This document shows positions 8,114-18,617 of a DNA stretch of 43,733 bases, piece after piece. This DNA is from Thermoplasmata archaeon. Its GTDB lineage: Archaea > Thermoplasmatota > Thermoplasmata > Thermoplasmatales > GCA-001856825. Position numbers and translations under genes: made by a program. Each line of letters begins with the position of its first letter. Position 1 is the first letter of the stretch. The DNA is taken from the NCBI GenBank assembly GCA_023256615.1, contig JAGDXO010000006.1, positions 1-43,733 on the forward strand, in the 5' to 3' direction. The notes under the pieces were generated by a model that searched no databases, was not told the DNA's origin, and saw only the letters and a program-made list of their open reading frames with translations.

Positions 8114-8852
8114 GCGGAGTGTTTACAGCCAGGTTACAGCATCAATATTGGTCAATTCTATTTACGCAATGATGAACTATCCCGTACTATTAATAAATAC
8201 ACTTTTAGCACCTCTGTCATTACTTGCTGTTGTTACATTCGCAAGTCATGGAAGGCTTCTTCCTGTCGCAGCTGAAGGGGCATTAATAATGAACATGGTT
8301 CAAAGTGGTACATCCCTTCAGGGTGATCTTTCGCATCTTAAGAATGATATGCGTCTCCAGGATATGATAGTTAGCTCACCTACTCCAGCAATGATTTACA
8401 TATTTGGAATGGCCATTTCCGAGATAGTTTATTCAATTCCCACACTGACACTTCTCATTATACTGAATTTGCTGTTTGTAAAAACCACTATAATTGGAGG
8501 GATGGTGATATTTTTTGATATGGCTACGATTTTTACATTTTCAATCTCACTTGGATTTTTACTTTCAACATTTTCTTCAGACATAATCCAGAGCTGGGCT
8601 TTTTCTGGAATCCTGTCTCCTATTCTCACCACACTCCCCCCTGTTTATTATCCAATAAGTTACATTCCTTACCCATATAGGTACCTATCATATCTTTCTC
8701 CCACAACATATGCAGCCGAAATTGCCCAGAATTCTACAGGATTCGCTAATCTTGGGGTAGAAAACTATGCAATTTCATGGTTGATTCTTATTGGTATAAC
8801 GGTATTACTAACATATCTAGCGCTCAGACGCTCGAGGTGGAGGGAAGTTTAG
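8100..8852 (+). CDS. ABC-2 type transporter permease
   Basis: The membrane partner of the ATPase just upstream. About six hydrophobic helices are visible, starting with the segment NYPVLLINTLLAPLSLLAV and ending just before the basic tail A-L-R-R-S-R-W-R-E. The reading frame is open back to TTG 8052, but the first convincing start is GTG 8100, which would overlap the ATPase end by 14 bases. GGAGG sits just before it (8093-8097), though closer than usual. TTG 8088 or 8091 are alternatives. The 3' end overlaps the convergent MFS gene by 29 bases. The exported compound is not predictable. Confidence 0.85.
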   Translation: MKRIKRSVYSQVTASILVNSIYAMMNYPVLLINTLLAPLSLLAVVTFASHGRLLPVAAEGALIMNMVQSGTSLQGDLSHLKNDMRLQDMIVSSPTPAMIYIFGMAISEIVYSIPTLTLLIILNLLFVKTTIIGGMVIFFDMATIFTFSISLGFLLSTFSSDIIQSWAFSGILSPILTTLPPVYYPISYIPYPYRYLSYLSPTTYAAEIAQNSTGFANLGVENYAISWLILIGITVLLTYLALRRSRWREV

Positions 8853-10038
8853 TTCTTTTGGGGAGAAGAGGAAGGAGTAGGCATGATATTACCGAAGTTA
8901 TCATCATTATCCAGAAGGAATAGTATATGGTATATCCCATAGCATTGAGAAGAGACATTAGACCTATCCCAGCAGCTCCTCCTATAGTATTTCCTATACC
9001 CCATACAAATCCTGACGATGTAGTTGAAAACTCTTTTGGGACGACCTGTGTTACGTATCCAAGTAGGACTGGAAATCCGCTCATTGCGAAAAATACATAA
9101 ATGGAATAGGAAATGGCAGCAATCCACATATTGTTTTTAGCCAACAGGAATACAAAGAAAATAGCTGTTGAAGCTGTAACGGTTACAGTTACCGTGAACC
9201 TTCCTCCTTTCTTGGATGTAACATATCCGAAAAAAGGCTGGCCAATGACGGCGGTTAAAAGAGCAAGTGTCAATATTATTCCCATAAGATAATGGGAATT
9301 TAAAATAGAAGTTACATAAGTAGGAACATAGGTGGTTGTAGCACTCAGAAACATGGATCTGAAGAATGTTACAGAAACCAAAGCAACTATGAAATATTTA
9401 AATTTACCAAGATCCCTGAGGGAACTTTTTTTCTTTATTTTAGTTATTTTATTTCTCTCAGGATTTTTGACCGAGAGGCCCATATTTATTATTATGCCTG
9501 CTAAGATTGCAACTATTCCAAGAAAATTAACACCGTAGAATTTACCGAAGAGCATTATGGAAAGAACGACCATACTGGGCATAAAGGCCCTTCCGAGGCT
9601 TCCAAACGATCCATTTATTCCCATTGCTGATGGGGCTTCAGATCCCTCAAATGCATCCGATAGAATGTAAGCTCCCATTGGATGATAGAGAGACTGTCCT
9701 ATGCCTAGGAAAAGTGCACCCATTATCATGAATTCATACGAGAATCCATGGAATAAAAAAGGCAATGAAAGGAACGGTGCTGCAATGCCGTCCATGATTA
9801 TTCCGAGTATGAGCATCTCCTTATGTTTTCCATTCCTGTCCGCATATAGGCTAGCAGGAGTGCTCACGAATCCAGAAATAAGTGTATAAATTATTGCTAT
9901 CACACCAAGAATCCAAAGCTTCAATCCACCAATCTCGATGTAATAAGTTATTAAGACAGGATATAACAGATTATAACCGTCATTTATAAAGTGACCGAGT
10001 GAAGTATAGGAGAGGACCTTCAACTTTTCCTTTATCAT
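8824..10038 (-). CDS. MFS transporter, fosmidomycin-resistance-like
   Basis: A 404-residue 12-helix major facilitator. The N-terminus, GHFINDGYNLLYPVL, resembles the H-F-x-N-D start of the Fsr/fosmidomycin-resistance group. The loop between helices 2 and 3 has the shortened motif A-D-R-N-G-K-H-K. A Lys-rich central loop (K-I-T-K-I-K-K-K) divides the two six-helix halves. The role is proton-driven efflux of a small molecule (inferred from the family). The PadR-type gene at 10135 runs divergently across a 96-base spacer and is the obvious candidate regulator. Confidence 0.87.
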   Translation of the reverse strand: MIKEKLKVLSYTSLGHFINDGYNLLYPVLITYYIEIGGLKLWILGVIAIIYTLISGFVSTPASLYADRNGKHKEMLILGIIMDGIAAPFLSLPFLFHGFSYEFMIMGALFLGIGQSLYHPMGAYILSDAFEGSEAPSAMGINGSFGSLGRAFMPSMVVLSIMLFGKFYGVNFLGIVAILAGIIINMGLSVKNPERNKITKIKKKSSLRDLGKFKYFIVALVSVTFFRSMFLSATTTYVPTYVTSILNSHYLMGIILTLALLTAVIGQPFFGYVTSKKGGRFTVTVTVTASTAIFFVFLLAKNNMWIAAISYSIYVFFAMSGFPVLLGYVTQVVPKEFSTTSSGFVWGIGNTIGGAAGIGLMSLLNAMGYTIYYSFWIMMITSVISCLLLPLLPKRTKLPSTSSV

Positions 10039-13181: not shown

Positions 13182-14354
13182 TTAAATAGGAACTGGTCTA
13201 AAATAGTTTCTAGATGTTATCAAAAGAGGAATCATTAACAATCCCATTACGCCAAGAATTATCCAGGCAGTGGTATAATTGAAATTATAAGCTATAAATG
13301 CAAAAAGGAATGGCGAAAGAGATCCTATTACCAGTTGTATAAAATTCACGAATGAGAGAGAGAATGACACCATTGCTTTGTCTTCTATTATCTCAGCTGC
13401 AATTGTATAAAGAATTGAGAAACCCGAAACAGTAACCAGACCAAGTATGGTTATAACTGCTGCCAGGAAAATGAAGGATCTTGCGAAGGGGATCAGCATG
13501 AACATGAAACCCGTTACTCCAAGAATAAAATACGAATAGGACATCCTGTGTTTTGTATTTGAAAATATATGGCCTCCAATAACGCCCCCAACAAAACCTA
13601 TGATGAGGAAAAGTCCGTCAATGAATCCAGCATCGCTGGGGCTTAGTTTAAGGCTGTTTTCACTGAAATATATGATGAACTGACCAATAATGGTCTCTGA
13701 AAATATTACAGTTATTGTACCTATTGAAATTATCCACAGATATTTGTTTCTTAAAATTATGGACAATCTTTTTCCAAGCCCAGATGTGCCGACCTTAGGC
13801 TCCTTTAAATCCCTGAGAACAACAAAATTCTCTATAGCAATAATGACCGCTAAGAAACCTCCAATAACGAGGGAAAGTCTCCATCCAACAGCATAATCAA
13901 CAAAGACCCATCCGAATGCTCCAATACCTCCTCCTAGGTTAAAGGCTCCATTGTAAATACCTACTTGGAACCCAAATGATTCTGGCGGTGAAATATGCCT
14001 GAGCAGGCTGAGTCCTGGGGAGAAGAATAATGCTGAACCGGCTCCTGCAATAAATCTGAAAATAATTAATTCAAAGATACTGAATGATAAACCTGAAAGA
14101 ATACCGGCAGTTCCAAGTATCATCAATCCTATGAATGCAACAATCTTAGGACCGTATCGTGAGGCCAGAATGCCGCCGACCATCTGGAAGGCTGCAAGGC
14201 CGGCATAGAAACTGGTTGTCATTATTCCAAGGTCCAGTATCCTCAGGTCTAGTGATTTTGCAATATAAGTTAAGCCTGGGGCTATATCAAACCAGTTCAA
14301 TGCGTAAATGGCTCTGGCGGTATTGATAGAAGCTGATTTAATTCTGTAGCCCAG
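13182..14354 (-). CDS. MFS transporter, probably started at CTG
   Basis: A 12-helix major facilitator. The first conventional start (TTG 14300) would cut off the front half of helix 1. The frame is open 18 codons further, to CTG 14354, giving a normal basic head (G-Y-R-I-K) and a full helix 1 (A-R-A-I-Y-A-L-N-W-F-D-I-A-P-G). The bases before that CTG are GGTGATTAG, matching the GGTGATTAT that precedes the TTG start of the Mrp gene. The sugar-phosphate/anion-porter style loop A-S-R-Y-G-P-K follows helix 2. A second basic loop (E-P-K-V-G-T-S-G-L-G-K-R) divides the halves. It sits beside lysA and cell-wall-peptide enzymes, so uptake of peptides or amino acids is a reasonable inference. Confidence 0.82.
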   Translation of the reverse strand: MGYRIKSASINTARAIYALNWFDIAPGLTYIAKSLDLRILDLGIMTTSFYAGLAAFQMVGGILASRYGPKIVAFIGLMILGTAGILSGLSFSIFELIIFRFIAGAGSALFFSPGLSLLRHISPPESFGFQVGIYNGAFNLGGGIGAFGWVFVDYAVGWRLSLVIGGFLAVIIAIENFVVLRDLKEPKVGTSGLGKRLSIILRNKYLWIISIGTITVIFSETIIGQFIIYFSENSLKLSPSDAGFIDGLFLIIGFVGGVIGGHIFSNTKHRMSYSYFILGVTGFMFMLIPFARSFIFLAAVITILGLVTVSGFSILYTIAAEIIEDKAMVSFSLSFVNFIQLVIGSLSPFLFAFIAYNFNYTTAWIILGVMGLLMIPLLITSRNYFRPVPI

Positions 14355-14363
14355 CTAATCACC
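14355..14363 (-). promoter_or_regulatory. Ribosome-binding site favouring a CTG start
   Basis: The minus strand reads GGTGATTAG immediately before CTG 14354. GGTGA is complementary to the expected archaeal 16S 3' end (UCACC), with four bases to the CTG. No such site precedes the alternative TTG 14300. Confidence 0.5.
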
Positions 14364-14437
14364 TTATCCCAAAACAATTTTAACTATAAAAAAGGGGATT
14401 ATAAATGAATTAATAAAATGAAGGCTTTTTATCACTT

Positions 14438-14824
14438 TTACTGAAATAATGTAGCATTTATTTCAACTGTTTTTATTAGTGGTATTAAGGATTCCCTGAT
14501 CATTTCCCCTATTTCTGTAAGTCTATATGTTATCCTACCGTCTGATGTATCCCTTTTAATTAGCCTGTTACTTTCGAGTTCTCTAAGTCTGGATGATATG
14601 ATAGTTGTGCTGGAATTAGGTATTCCCATGAGTATTTCATTGAAACTCTTTCTATCCTTATTGCCCCCTAAATATGTAAGGATGATTATTGTATATTTTT
14701 TACCGAGAATATGGAAAATATGAAGTGATGGATCTATACATATTGTCTCTTTTCCATATGAAATCATGCAAGTTTTATTCTTATTTTCTTTTCTTATATT
14801 TTCCTTCTTTGAATTAATATTCAT
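14438..14824 (-). CDS. HxlR-type winged-helix regulator
   Basis: A 128-residue winged-helix protein of the HxlR group. The core G-K-K-Y-T-I-I-I-L-T-Y-L-G replaces the usual G-K-W-t-l-l-I-L. The recognition region is S-F-N-E-I-L-M-G-I-P-N-S-S-T-T-I-I-S-S-R-L-R-E-L-E, followed by the wing R-I-T-Y-R-L-T-E-I-G. A Lys/Asn-rich head precedes it, and Cys 19 plus Cys 29 could act as a redox or metal sensor (speculative). Its ATG overlaps the lysA stop (ATGA), so it is cotranscribed with lysA and likely regulates lysA, the neighbouring MFS gene, or both. Confidence 0.82.
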   Translation of the reverse strand: MNINSKKENIRKENKNKTCMISYGKETICIDPSLHIFHILGKKYTIIILTYLGGNKDRKSFNEILMGIPNSSTTIISSRLRELESNRLIKRDTSDGRITYRLTEIGEMIRESLIPLIKTVEINATLFQ

Positions 14825-16110
14825 AATCGATCCATCCCTATTGCTTTCAGATGCTCCGGTATTATGAAATTGTTCAGCATATCTTGCAATTCATCCCTTT
14901 CCCTTATAATATATTCCTCGCGATTGTCCAAAAGTATCTCCATTGCTTTAGGCTGAAGATTATAATTGGAAGACATAGATGTTACATAAGCACCGGCGTT
15001 AAGTATGGCGATCAGATCACCGGGTTCTAGTTTCTGGATTGAAATGTCCTTAGCTATTTTATCCGTATTTTCACATATAGGACCAACAACATCTCCTCTT
15101 TCCTCTTTTTTATTGAAGAACTTGTTAACAGGTATTATGGGATGTATTGCTCCATAGAGTGCAGGTCTTATCAAAATATTCATTCCAGTGTCTGTACCGA
15201 TCATATTTCTATCATAATCTTTTTTACATGTAACTCTAGAGATCAGTACTGCTGAATTAGCAACAATATACCTGCCAGGTTCCATTATCAGTTTTGTATT
15301 TTCAGTGAATAAATCCCTGTAATTCTTCATATTTTCCTTTATGTAATTAGATGTTCTACCCAAATCCAAGGATTCTTCATTATCTCTATAGGGAACGCCA
15401 AATCCTCCGCCTATATCAACAAACTCAAAGGTAATCCCTAATTTATGAGATATTTCAGAGGCTATAGAGAAAAAAGTTCTGGTTGATTCACGGAAAAATT
15501 CAGGGTCCAATACATTGGAACCAGTCATCATATGTATACCTAATCTATGCACCCCGCTTTCAATAGCTGTTTCGTAAGCTTTCAATGCTGCTTCAGGTGG
15601 CATTCCAAATTTGCTCCCTTTGCCTCCGGTAGTCGTACCTTCAAATTCCCCCTTCCCCATTCCCGGGTTTATCCTGAATGAAATTGTCTCGGGGGGGTCT
15701 GCAGCTACCATATTGAACTGGGAAATATCATCAAAATTAATTGTCACACCTGTTTCTTTGATCTTTTTTAGTTCATTTCCCGGGAGATTATTCGGTGATG
15801 CTATTATCTTATCCTTACTGAAACCGGTCTTCAGGGCAAGAAGAACTTCATTAAGATTGGCTGCGTCTATTCCAACTCCCTTCTCCCTTAATATGGAAAG
15901 AATTGCAGGATTATAATTCGCCTTCATTGCGTAATGGAGTGAAAAATTTTCTTTGTCAAATGCATTCATGAGTTCTCTGACATTTCTTTCAATGATGCTC
16001 CTTGAATAGATGATCAGAGGAGTTCCATATTTTTCAGATAATTCCGATATATCTTCCCCTGAAAATAATAATTTCCCATTAACAATGTCAAAATAATCCA
16101 GATAATCCAT
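14821..16110 (-). CDS. lysA: Diaminopimelate decarboxylase
   Basis: A 429-residue fold-III PLP enzyme that converts meso-diaminopimelate to lysine. The PLP lysine lies in H-Y-A-M-K-A-N (K63). The phosphate-binding loop is D-I-G-G-G-F-G-V-P-Y, then E-P-G-R-Y-I-V-A-N-S. The dimer-partner motif C-E-N-T-D provides the catalytic Cys. The length is normal. No other lysine or DAP biosynthetic gene is in the window. Instead it neighbours a dipeptide epimerase and an NlpC/P60 peptidase, suggesting it uses DAP released from bacterial wall peptides. TATAAATATAT at 16127-16137 sits at promoter distance, implying its own leaderless transcript shared with the HxlR gene. Confidence 0.93.
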   Translation of the reverse strand: MDYLDYFDIVNGKLLFSGEDISELSEKYGTPLIIYSRSIIERNVRELMNAFDKENFSLHYAMKANYNPAILSILREKGVGIDAANLNEVLLALKTGFSKDKIIASPNNLPGNELKKIKETGVTINFDDISQFNMVAADPPETISFRINPGMGKGEFEGTTTGGKGSKFGMPPEAALKAYETAIESGVHRLGIHMMTGSNVLDPEFFRESTRTFFSIASEISHKLGITFEFVDIGGGFGVPYRDNEESLDLGRTSNYIKENMKNYRDLFTENTKLIMEPGRYIVANSAVLISRVTCKKDYDRNMIGTDTGMNILIRPALYGAIHPIIPVNKFFNKKEERGDVVGPICENTDKIAKDISIQKLEPGDLIAILNAGAYVTSMSSNYNLQPKAMEILLDNREEYIIRERDELQDMLNNFIIPEHLKAIGMDRL

Positions 16111-16126
16111 AAGGGTTAATAAAAAA

Positions 16127-16137
16127 TATAAATATAT
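16127..16137 (-). promoter_or_regulatory. TATA box of lysA-HxlR
   Basis: The minus strand reads ATATATTTATA, about 17-27 bases before the lysA ATG at 16110. This suggests transcription starting at or just before the ATG. Confidence 0.5.
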
Positions 16138-16141
16138 GGTT

Positions 16142-17266
16142 TTAGAATGCTTTCTGTCTGCTACCTTCCTTTATTGTTTCAACGAGGGAAATCTCCTCTC
16201 CGTTAAGAGCAAGATTTCCAAGTCCTGAGAAATTATCGTCCATTCTGAACCCGTTTTCCATAGGTAACATCATGCCTGAAGTAAGAGTATTCTTCATGTC
16301 AATGTCAGAATCGAGATCCACAAATATTACATTTTTTGTGCTCAGTGAAAAATGTATTCCTGCAGCAATTGCAATTGAACCTTCCATCATGCATCCAACC
16401 ATGTTGGGTAATCCTGCTGCCTCACTTATGTTTGCGATCTTAATTGCATTATGTATTCCACCACTCTTCATAAGTTTAATATTAATCATATCTGCTGCTT
16501 CTTTCTTCACTACCCTTATTGCATCCTCGGGGGAGTGGACGGATTCATCTGCCATTATCCTAGAAGACGTATTCTTTCTGACAAATGCAAGTCCATCTAC
16601 ATCATATGCTATAACAGGTTGTTCCACTAAATCTATTCCAAGTGATTCAAATCTCCTTATGTTAGATATTGCTTCTTTTGGTTTCCAGGCCTGATTTGCA
16701 TCTATAAATATATTTATTCCATTGCCAACAGTGTTAATGACTTCTTCTACCCTTTTCAAATCACTGTTGATTTCCTCCCCTACCTTCATCTTTATTCTCT
16801 TTATACCAATTTTTTTAAGATATTCCGCTTTTTTAACAGCAGAAGCATTATCCATAATGCCAATGGTTACATCCGTTTCAATTTTTTTCCTGTACTTTCC
16901 AAGAAATTTTGATAGAGGAACATTGTGCTCTTTGGAGATCAAATCATAAAGAGCAATATCAAAGGCAGCCTTCGCCGAAGTATTTCTTAGTAATGAATGG
17001 TCTATCTTATCAAATAATAATCCTAAATCATCGGTATCCTCGCCAATCAGTGATGAAGCTATAACCTTGCTTGCTGCTATTGCAGTTTCTTGTGTCTCAC
17101 CAATTATATGAGAAGCAGGGGATGCCTCTCCTATTCCATATAACCCATTTTCTCCATAAATTTTAATGACGACTTCATCGCTCTGTTCTGATGAACCCAG
17201 AGATATTTTGAATGGAGCCTTGTAATAAACCGTTCCCTTAAAAATCTCAATTTTTTCAATTTTCAT
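16142..17266 (-). CDS. Dipeptide epimerase (L-Ala-D/L-Glu epimerase-like), enolase superfamily
   Basis: A 374-residue member of the muconate-lactonising subgroup of enolases. The K-x-K pair is K159/K161, the metal ligands are D189, E215 and D240, and the opposite-face base is in K-L-M-K-S-G-G (K267 by alignment). The block M-V-G-C-M-M-E-G-S and the late D-L-D motif (D317, D319) match the D-x-D that holds the substrate amino group in L-Ala-D/L-Glu epimerases such as YkfB. That favours dipeptide epimerisation over o-succinylbenzoate synthase or muconate cyclase. In bacteria the enzyme recycles wall peptides. The head-to-head neighbour is an NlpC/P60 peptidase, as in the Bacillus ykf operon; lysA follows 31 bases downstream. 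Confidence 0.86.
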   Translation of the reverse strand: MKIEKIEIFKGTVYYKAPFKISLGSSEQSDEVVIKIYGENGLYGIGEASPASHIIGETQETAIAASKVIASSLIGEDTDDLGLLFDKIDHSLLRNTSAKAAFDIALYDLISKEHNVPLSKFLGKYRKKIETDVTIGIMDNASAVKKAEYLKKIGIKRIKMKVGEEINSDLKRVEEVINTVGNGINIFIDANQAWKPKEAISNIRRFESLGIDLVEQPVIAYDVDGLAFVRKNTSSRIMADESVHSPEDAIRVVKKEAADMINIKLMKSGGIHNAIKIANISEAAGLPNMVGCMMEGSIAIAAGIHFSLSTKNVIFVDLDSDIDMKNTLTSGMMLPMENGFRMDDNFSGLGNLALNGEEISLVETIKEGSRQKAF

Positions 17267-17369
17267 TTATTCTCGATTGACAGTGTGAAGAAATATTAAT
17301 TTTTTTTGAGACCAATTATTAACTGGAATCTATAGCAAAGTATTTTTTCAATATTCCGATTCAAAATTC

Positions 17370-18053
17370 ATGCAGATGGTGGTAACCAGTGTTGCGGATG
17401 TAAGAAAAGAGCCAAGGTCAAATTCTGAACTTGATTCACAGCTTATATATGGGGAAACAGTTGAAGTGGTTGAGGAACTCGGTGAATTTTCGCACATCAT
17501 AAGAAAAAATGACGTAGAAGGATTTGTAAAAACTACACTCTTGGGGGAATATTCAACACGTAAGTATAAGCTCAGTAGACAGTACAGAAACAGGATAATG
17601 GCTCTGCCATTCGGGGCTTACCTGAGTGAAGAGGATATTGAAAAATTCTCCATCCCTCAAAGCTTTCTTGTTGATATGGAAAAGAAATTCAATCCAGTTG
17701 ACCTTGCGAATAGATTTATGGGCATTCCCTACCTGTGGGGTGGCACATCAGATTTTGGATTCGACTGCTCCGGTTTCACACAAAGGTTATTTAGATATTC
17801 AGGATATGAAATTCCAAGGAATTCAGACCAGCAGAGGGACGCATCCTTGAACGTGGAGAGCTTGGAAGATGCAAAGAAGGGAGATCTCGTATTTTTCAAG
17901 GGACATGTTGCATTCTATGTGGGTAGAGGAAAAATCATCCATGCAAATGGCCATTACAGCAGAATCACAATGAATGACCTTACAGATGAATCCCCTTATT
18001 CAAGAAGTCTTCTCAATATAATGGAAAAAATTGGACGTTTCCCCCTTCATTAA
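17370..18053 (+). CDS. SH3-NlpC/P60 cysteine peptidase, YkfC-like
   Basis: A 227-residue protein with an SH3b-like head (about 1-60: V-A-D-V-R-K-E-P, then a G-F-V strand) and an NlpC/P60 domain (about 105-215). The catalytic Cys is C133 in F-D-C-S-G-F, and the histidines are H179 (G-H-V-A-F-Y-V-G) and H191 (I-I-H-A-N-G). P-Y-L-W-G-G-T-S before the Cys is the family signature. Relatives cut gamma-D-Glu to diaminopimelate bonds in peptidoglycan peptides. There is no signal peptide, so it works inside the cell, like the recycling enzyme YkfC. It is divergent from the dipeptide epimerase across a 103-base spacer. In an archaeon without murein this points to nutrient salvage. Confidence 0.88.
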   Translation: MQMVVTSVADVRKEPRSNSELDSQLIYGETVEVVEELGEFSHIIRKNDVEGFVKTTLLGEYSTRKYKLSRQYRNRIMALPFGAYLSEEDIEKFSIPQSFLVDMEKKFNPVDLANRFMGIPYLWGGTSDFGFDCSGFTQRLFRYSGYEIPRNSDQQRDASLNVESLEDAKKGDLVFFKGHVAFYVGRGKIIHANGHYSRITMNDLTDESPYSRSLLNIMEKIGRFPLH

Positions 18054-18113: not shown

Positions 18114-18617
18114 ATGAGAAAAATGACACAGAAGAATTTGAATGATGCATTCTGCGGGGAAAGCCAGGCCCATATGAAATATCTCATATATTCTGATGTC
18201 GCAGAAAAGAATGGATACAAGAATATCTCCAGACTATTTAAGGCAATATCTTATGCTGAACAGGTCCATGCAACGAACCATTTCAGAAATCTTGGGATGA
18301 TAAAGAGTACTGATCAGAATCTGGAAGATGCAATTGAGGGTGAATCATACGAAGTAAACGAAATGTATCCGGTGTTCAACGAGGTAGCGAAATTCCAGAA
18401 TGAGAAAGGGGCTGAAACATCAACAAAGTACGCACTTGAAGCTGAAAAAATTCATGAGAAAATGTACAGGGATGCACTTGAAAGTGTCAAGAAAAATAAG
18501 GATATAGAAATAGGAGATATCTATATATGCAGTGTCTGTGGATACACAACGACAGGTAAGCCTCCAGAAAAATGTCCAGTATGTGGAGCTTCGTCAAGTT
18601 CGTTCAGGAAGTTTTAA
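18114..18617 (+). CDS. Rubrerythrin
   Basis: A 167-residue non-haem iron peroxidase that reduces hydrogen peroxide in the cytosol. The ferritin-like part (about 5-130) supplies diiron ligands, including E-S-Q-A-H near the start and the E-x-x-H pairs A-E-Q-V-H and A-E-K-I-H. The C-terminal rubredoxin part has C139-x-x-C142 and C154-x-x-C157. The order (diiron, then rubredoxin) and the length are those of a short classical rubrerythrin. It stands alone, and the convergent DUF3783 gene overlaps its stop by 4 bases. Confidence 0.95.
   Translation: MRKMTQKNLNDAFCGESQAHMKYLIYSDVAEKNGYKNISRLFKAISYAEQVHATNHFRNLGMIKSTDQNLEDAIEGESYEVNEMYPVFNEVAKFQNEKGAETSTKYALEAEKIHEKMYRDALESVKKNKDIEIGDIYICSVCGYTTTGKPPEKCPVCGASSSSFRKF

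Follow-up and report, generated by a model that had tools for sequence, protein, structure and literature searches.

Peptidoglycan recycling is described as a bacterial housekeeping pathway and, to our knowledge, complete wall-eating pathways of the kind considered here have so far been described only in bacteria. Among the closest systems are the dppA-E/ykfABCD operon of Bacillus subtilis, which serves the use of murein peptides, and the NamZ-NagZ-MurQ recycling of peptidoglycan sugars in the same bacterium. In archaea, secreted peptidoglycan hydrolases kill bacteria, and whether the bacteria themselves are a resource has been left open (PMC12352652). The stretch analysed in this study (the window) comprises 43,733 nucleotides of contig JAGDXO010000006.1 from the genome of a wall-less Thermoplasmata archaeon, G000 (1.2 Mb, 61 contigs, 84% complete). 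Between positions 13182 and 18053 it carries five neighbouring genes encoding an MFS permease, an HxlR-family regulator, the diaminopimelate (DAP) decarboxylase LysA, a dipeptide epimerase and an NlpC/P60 peptidase (NlpC). An earlier note on this DNA had proposed that they salvage fragments of bacterial walls, and all five open reading frames (ORFs), as well as the catalytic residues named in it, were found where it had placed them. The cluster very probably breaks down imported bacterial wall pieces, one of which is made into lysine, and we estimate at roughly 0.8 the probability that it forms the peptide branch of a pathway for the catabolism of peptidoglycan.

With the dpp/ykf operon the cluster shares the presence of an epimerase together with an SH3b-NlpC/P60 peptidase, and archaeal relatives also have an M55 D-aminopeptidase and a dipeptide/oligopeptide ATP-binding cassette (ABC) importer alongside. 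It differs from the operon in that the archaeal unit includes LysA and the host itself makes no murein; moreover, the window has an MFS gene and neither an ABC importer nor M55. The epimerase, lysA, hxlR and MFS genes form a run on the minus strand, and the NlpC gene runs divergently, with 103 bases between it and the epimerase gene.

The NlpC gene (17370–18053, plus strand) encodes a cytosolic SH3b-NlpC/P60 cysteine peptidase, a predicted gamma-D-Glu-diaminopimelate endopeptidase (NLPC_P60 86.6 bits; SH3_3). Its catalytic triad C133, H179 and H191 is invariant across 12 archaeal rows (alignment A1), as are Y121, W123, D132 and S134, the gamma-D-Glu-holding S1 residues defined for YkfC-type enzymes (PMC2954226). 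The AlphaFold model (predicted local distance difference test, pLDDT, 88) matched best, over both domains, YkfC of B. cereus (BcYkfC) and dipeptidyl-peptidase VI; the best PDB match was BcYkfC (3h41), to which Foldseek aligned it over both domains with a template modelling (TM) score of 0.71 by query length. The domain order, two-domain fold, triad and S1 residues are thus shared with YkfC and dipeptidyl-peptidase VI (3h41, 3npf, 3pvq; PMC2954226), from which the archaeal enzyme differs in having one SH3b domain instead of two and in the residues N151 and V49 discussed below. No signal peptide was evident at the N-terminus of the window NlpC or of any aligned archaeal NlpC. When bacterial homologues were placed in a tree together with the 22 archaeal rows, a branch (94/97) had all of the latter on the same side, and the nearest rows were alphaproteobacterial and from Mesoaciditoga, with the root and direction not settled. 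In one relative (L036, G026:C173, 4079–4754), the NlpC gene is split across two overlapping frames, an SH3b part and a catalytic part.

The neighbouring gene (16142–17266, minus strand; MR_MLE_C/N) encodes an enolase-superfamily dipeptide epimerase, predicted to act on L-Ala-D/L-Glu. The lysines K159, K161 and K264, which include the two catalytic ones, the three metal ligands D189, E215 and D240 and the C-terminal D317-x-D319 are all present, and the catalytic residues, the metal ligands and the D-x-D are invariant across 15 archaeal epimerase rows. The D-x-D of dipeptide epimerases binds the amine of the dipeptide. The closest solved structures, 3jva and 1jpm, are dipeptide epimerases as well.

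The product of lysA (14821–16110, minus strand) is a meso-diaminopimelate decarboxylase: it reaches 371 bits in the TIGR01048 equivalog (cut-off 297.9), has the pyridoxal-phosphate lysine K63, EPGR at 277 and CEN at 346, and its best PDB matches, 2p3e, 4xg1 and 1twi, are all DAP decarboxylases. The required substrate of LysA is meso-DAP. The refuting conditions named in the earlier note were put to the proposal as far as sequence data permit, and it survived them. A complete DAP or LysW route was searched for in G000 and in the order, represented by 61 genomes of 25 genera. DapF was found in none of the 61, compared with 9 of 14 controls. In G000 the best DapA-family match falls below the cut-off, and the sole DapB-like match is a 349-codon frame of 24.7 bits, just above the family cut-off and only with neighbours in frame, against 91–95 bits for true DapB. 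LysX was absent from G000 and not near the cut-off in any genome of its family; the LysW route could not account for lysA anyway, because it does not use LysA. Own lysine synthesis was thus rejected as the explanation of lysA in G000.

A strong LysX match occurs together with LysA in some relatives (e.g., G037, G043, G057, G019 and G031), which fits salvage on top of synthesis; Gram-negative walls would be a direct supply of meso-DAP. Five genomes (G006, G007, G009, G012 and G031) have a true DapB, as at L051 6634–7443 of G006 (167 bits, cut-off 122); all five are without DapF, and the product of this DapB is unexplained. Two relatives carry a damaged lysA. In G008 (L070, G008:C86, about 8440–9684, minus strand) an in-frame TAG divides it, leaving two ORFs that probably reflect a pseudogene or a fault in the assembly, and in G060 (L050, G060:C21, 10090–11180) the lysA beside the epimerase gene is broken over two frames.

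The gene order was compared across relatives. Two genomes of the same family and another genus (G003 and G005) keep the NlpC gene and the epimerase-lysA-MFS run at 47–69% identity, without hxlR; since they retain it, the order is not due to chance. Elsewhere the pieces are found in other combinations: in G037 and G057 NlpC immediately precedes the epimerase, and it lies beside lysA in G001, G019, the complete genome ASS_A1 (CP009479.1) and metagenome-assembled genomes (MAGs) of Nitrososphaerota, three of which (L078, L080 and L081) combine NlpC, LysA and Opp, while G026 has a row of NlpC, M55, lysA, S13 and epimerase genes. The order is thus conserved or re-formed, not scattered, and repeated re-joining supports a shared role more strongly than one inherited order would.

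In G001, G002, G006, G007, G019, G031, G037, G057, ASS_A1 and others, the NlpC/epimerase/lysA set lies among peptidoglycan genes, which in G003 and G005 form one separate 14-kb block. These clusters vary, and not every gene is present in every genome. They encode the exo-muramidase NamZ (226 and 171 bits), MurQ (318 bits, cut-off 168), NagA (239 bits, cut-off 226), AnmK (266 bits), a GH3 hexosaminidase, a BadF-type amino-sugar kinase, S13/PBP4 and AmpH-like relatives of D-Ala carboxypeptidases, an M55 D-aminopeptidase, a GlmS/NagB-II-like isomerase, OppBCDF with a binding protein, and a GlcD-like plus Fe-S pair. NamZ, MurQ and their companion enzymes have few uses beyond peptidoglycan. A peptide ABC importer lies close to the peptidase, or shares its cluster, in G002, G006, G007, L072, L074 and L078–L081. 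The idea of wall-fragment salvage is therefore supported in a broader form than the earlier note had given it, with the same enzymes standing among peptidoglycan-catabolism genes in relatives.

The relatives' clusters share NamZ, GH3 hexosaminidase, MurQ, NagA, a BadF-type kinase and an AmpH-like protein with the NamZ-NagZ-MurQ recycling of B. subtilis and differ from it in the archaeal host, in not having been found in G000 and in that no AmiE/AmpD-type amidase for the bond between N-acetylmuramic acid (MurNAc) and L-Ala was recognised in them. Candidates for this amidase are an N-terminal-Cys family, c14, and a C45 family encoded in the same clusters. Family c14 (L053 2348–3079 and relatives, alignment A3) has an invariant MCRM start, is a class-II N-terminal-nucleophile hydrolase and had no PDB relative by sequence; it is a candidate MurNAc-L-Ala amidase or deamidase. 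The GlcD-like flavoprotein and the Fe-S/CCG protein recur in the clusters (L056 9342–10742; L053 124–1296), and the pair could oxidise the D-lactate released by MurQ. The pathway of the relatives is nearly complete and looks like a feeding version of the dpp-ykf and NamZ-MurQ systems of bacteria.

The distribution across genomes is nested. NlpC was found in 14 of the 61 genomes of the order, and all 14 have LysA (G009 as a fragment only). MurQ (11/61), NamZ (10/61) and S13 (12/61) occur exclusively inside this set; Fisher's test at the level of the 25 genera, not corrected for the tree, gave P values of 1.7e-5, 1.6e-4 and 1.7e-5, respectively. When 390 genomes of the phylum were sampled, NlpC was present in only 14. 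Outside the phylum, Nitrososphaerota MAGs carry an NlpC of 46–48% identity beside LysA (TIGR01048 381 bits) and an Opp operon. At L078–L081 (Nitrososphaerota and other archaeal MAGs), NlpC and LysA form a divergent pair with SBP5 and OppBCDF, so that a second phylum has a minimal module for peptide salvage, independent of the first.

The genes, their catalytic residues, the linkage, the nested distribution and the absence of recognised DapF, true DapB and LysX are the observations on which we base the following scheme, whose substrates, direction of flux, uptake step and origin of the peptides in other organisms are predicted. Wall peptides from dead or lysed bacteria would enter the cell, in relatives through the Opp-type importer. 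The cytosolic NlpC would then cut L-Ala-gamma-D-Glu off meso-DAP, and the epimerase would convert L-Ala-D-Glu to L-Ala-L-Glu, making the dipeptide usable by ordinary peptidases. Finally, decarboxylation of the released meso-DAP by LysA would yield lysine, for which the organism has no recognised route of its own.

Several observations weigh against this scheme, and some of them favour other explanations of the cluster. LysA occurs also in 11 genomes of the order without this NlpC, so LysA by itself is no proof of salvage. Together with the true DapB of five genomes, this would suit a LysA that serves the cell's own lysine synthesis, with the epimerase and the peptidase as unrelated neighbours engaged in general peptide breakdown. 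We consider this unlikely, as the enzyme needs meso-DAP while the order yielded no DapF and G000 neither a DapA over the cut-off nor a true DapB, and the repeated linkage and the nested co-occurrence with MurQ, NamZ and S13 also argue against it. A further difficulty is that NamZ, MurQ and S13 were not found in G000, so the sugar-recycling pair that relatives carry (NamZ in 10, MurQ in 11) was not recognised in this genome. Given its 84% completeness and the separate block of these genes in G003 and G005, loss and non-assembly are indistinguishable here. In addition, no dedicated importer is recognised in the window: no peptide ABC importer adjoins the peptidase, as it would in an operon of the dppA-E/ykf type.

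The substrate preferences of the two enzymes also have to be weighed. The best NCBIfam match of the epimerase, the Ala-Glu equivalog A_G_epim_Thtga (NF041118), reaches 268 bits, under the cut-off of 500, and in the structure-match alignment Gly24 takes the place of YkfB Arg24, a residue that presumably has a functional role in YkfB. The proposed assignment therefore holds for the dipeptide-epimerase class with its D-x-D, while specificity for Ala-Glu is unproven and expected from context. In NlpC, the residues by which YkfC recognises a free N-terminus are replaced (BcYkfC Asp256 by N151, SH3b Tyr118 by V49). At these two S2 positions of the alignment, nearly all bacterial homologues have Tyr and Asp; Nitrososphaerota also retain Tyr, paired with Asp or Asn, and Thermoplasmatales carry Asn together with Val or Leu. 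Strict membership in the YkfC subfamily was rejected on N151 and V49; the window NlpC seems to have descended from the Tyr and Asp group and yet to lie outside that subfamily. Judged by its residues, its specificity for a free N-terminus has probably changed, perhaps toward MurNAc-linked peptides. An altered amine pocket and a sub-cut-off epimerase with Gly24 would be compatible with a cluster handling other D-amino-acid or gamma-glutamyl peptides, or dipeptides broadly. This is quite unlikely in view of the adjacent LysA, which points to DAP, mainly a bacterial-wall compound, the invariant S1 residues and the MurNAc-specific enzymes of the wider clusters. That the peptidase is instead a weapon or lysin against bacteria is very unlikely: archaeal peptidoglycan hydrolases exist, in Thermoplasmatota as well (PMC12352652), and NlpC/P60 enzymes act as lysins elsewhere, but signal peptides were not seen, on which ground a secreted lysin was rejected, both domains fold like those of the recycling enzyme YkfC, and the neighbouring genes encode catabolic enzymes of the cytosol.

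A secreted partner of the salvage enzymes in relatives may be family c13 (L053 11976–13154 and relatives, alignment A4). Its members have an N-terminal signal helix, a PKD-like domain, a C-terminal membrane anchor, the conserved motifs SEDCAHFVSE and GHAMLYIG, and weak Amidase_6 and NlpC/P60 matches. Judged from these sequence features, it is a possible surface-anchored wall hydrolase of the salvage clusters; its AlphaFold model was poor (pLDDT 42) and was not used.

The two remaining genes of the cluster fit the system less closely. The MFS gene (called at 13182–14300, minus strand; MFS_1 126 bits) probably starts at a CTG at 14354, giving 13182–14354, as suggested by a homologous N-terminus in L031 and L032 and by an open frame that spans 390 codons. 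It is kept beside lysA in one other genus. Its orthologues occur in 34 of the 61 genomes, several of them without NlpC or LysA and usually elsewhere in the genome, so the gene is not evidently the peptide importer that had been suggested; a dedicated importer of the system is not supported by this distribution, and its role in the window is uncertain. The HxlR gene (14438–14824, minus strand; Pfam HxlR 47.6 bits) overlaps lysA by 4 bases. As it is absent at the corresponding place in both relatives (L031 and L032 of G003 and G005), it is private to the arrangement of G000 and not specific to the system.

In GC content the cluster genes (0.30–0.41) match the window (0.37), and there is therefore no sign of contamination, which was rejected also because the same clusters occur in the single-contig genomes G031 and ASS_A1. 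Promoter and terminator scans stayed at chance level. A rubrerythrin gene (18114–18617) sits between NlpC and DUF2250 in the window; in G005 and G003 DUF2250 directly follows NlpC, so the rubrerythrin block was inserted or lost.

Beyond the window, we give about even odds to a wider proposal. Wall-less acidophilic archaea of two phyla may live partly on bacterial peptidoglycan through a complete pathway of release, Opp uptake, NamZ/GH3, AnmK/kinase, MurQ, NagA, NlpC, epimerase and LysA, meeting their lysine need from foreign meso-DAP, and their NlpC, lacking the free-N-terminus pocket, may cut MurNAc-linked peptides too. Compared with the bacteria-killing archaeal hydrolases (PMC12352652), with which it shares action on bacterial murein, the pathway is intracellular and catabolic where those enzymes are secreted and antibacterial, and would be their nutritional counterpart. 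A recycling pathway would thus appear as a feeding pathway in organisms with no peptidoglycan of their own, and the lysine supply of acidophilic archaea would be tied to their bacterial neighbours. Whether bacteria are themselves a resource can thereby be tested directly, both in Thermoplasmatales cultures and in genomes that match ASS_A1 in completeness. Our search for earlier reports of archaeal wall-peptide salvage, which found none, covered open-access papers, with subscription papers and preprints outside its scope.

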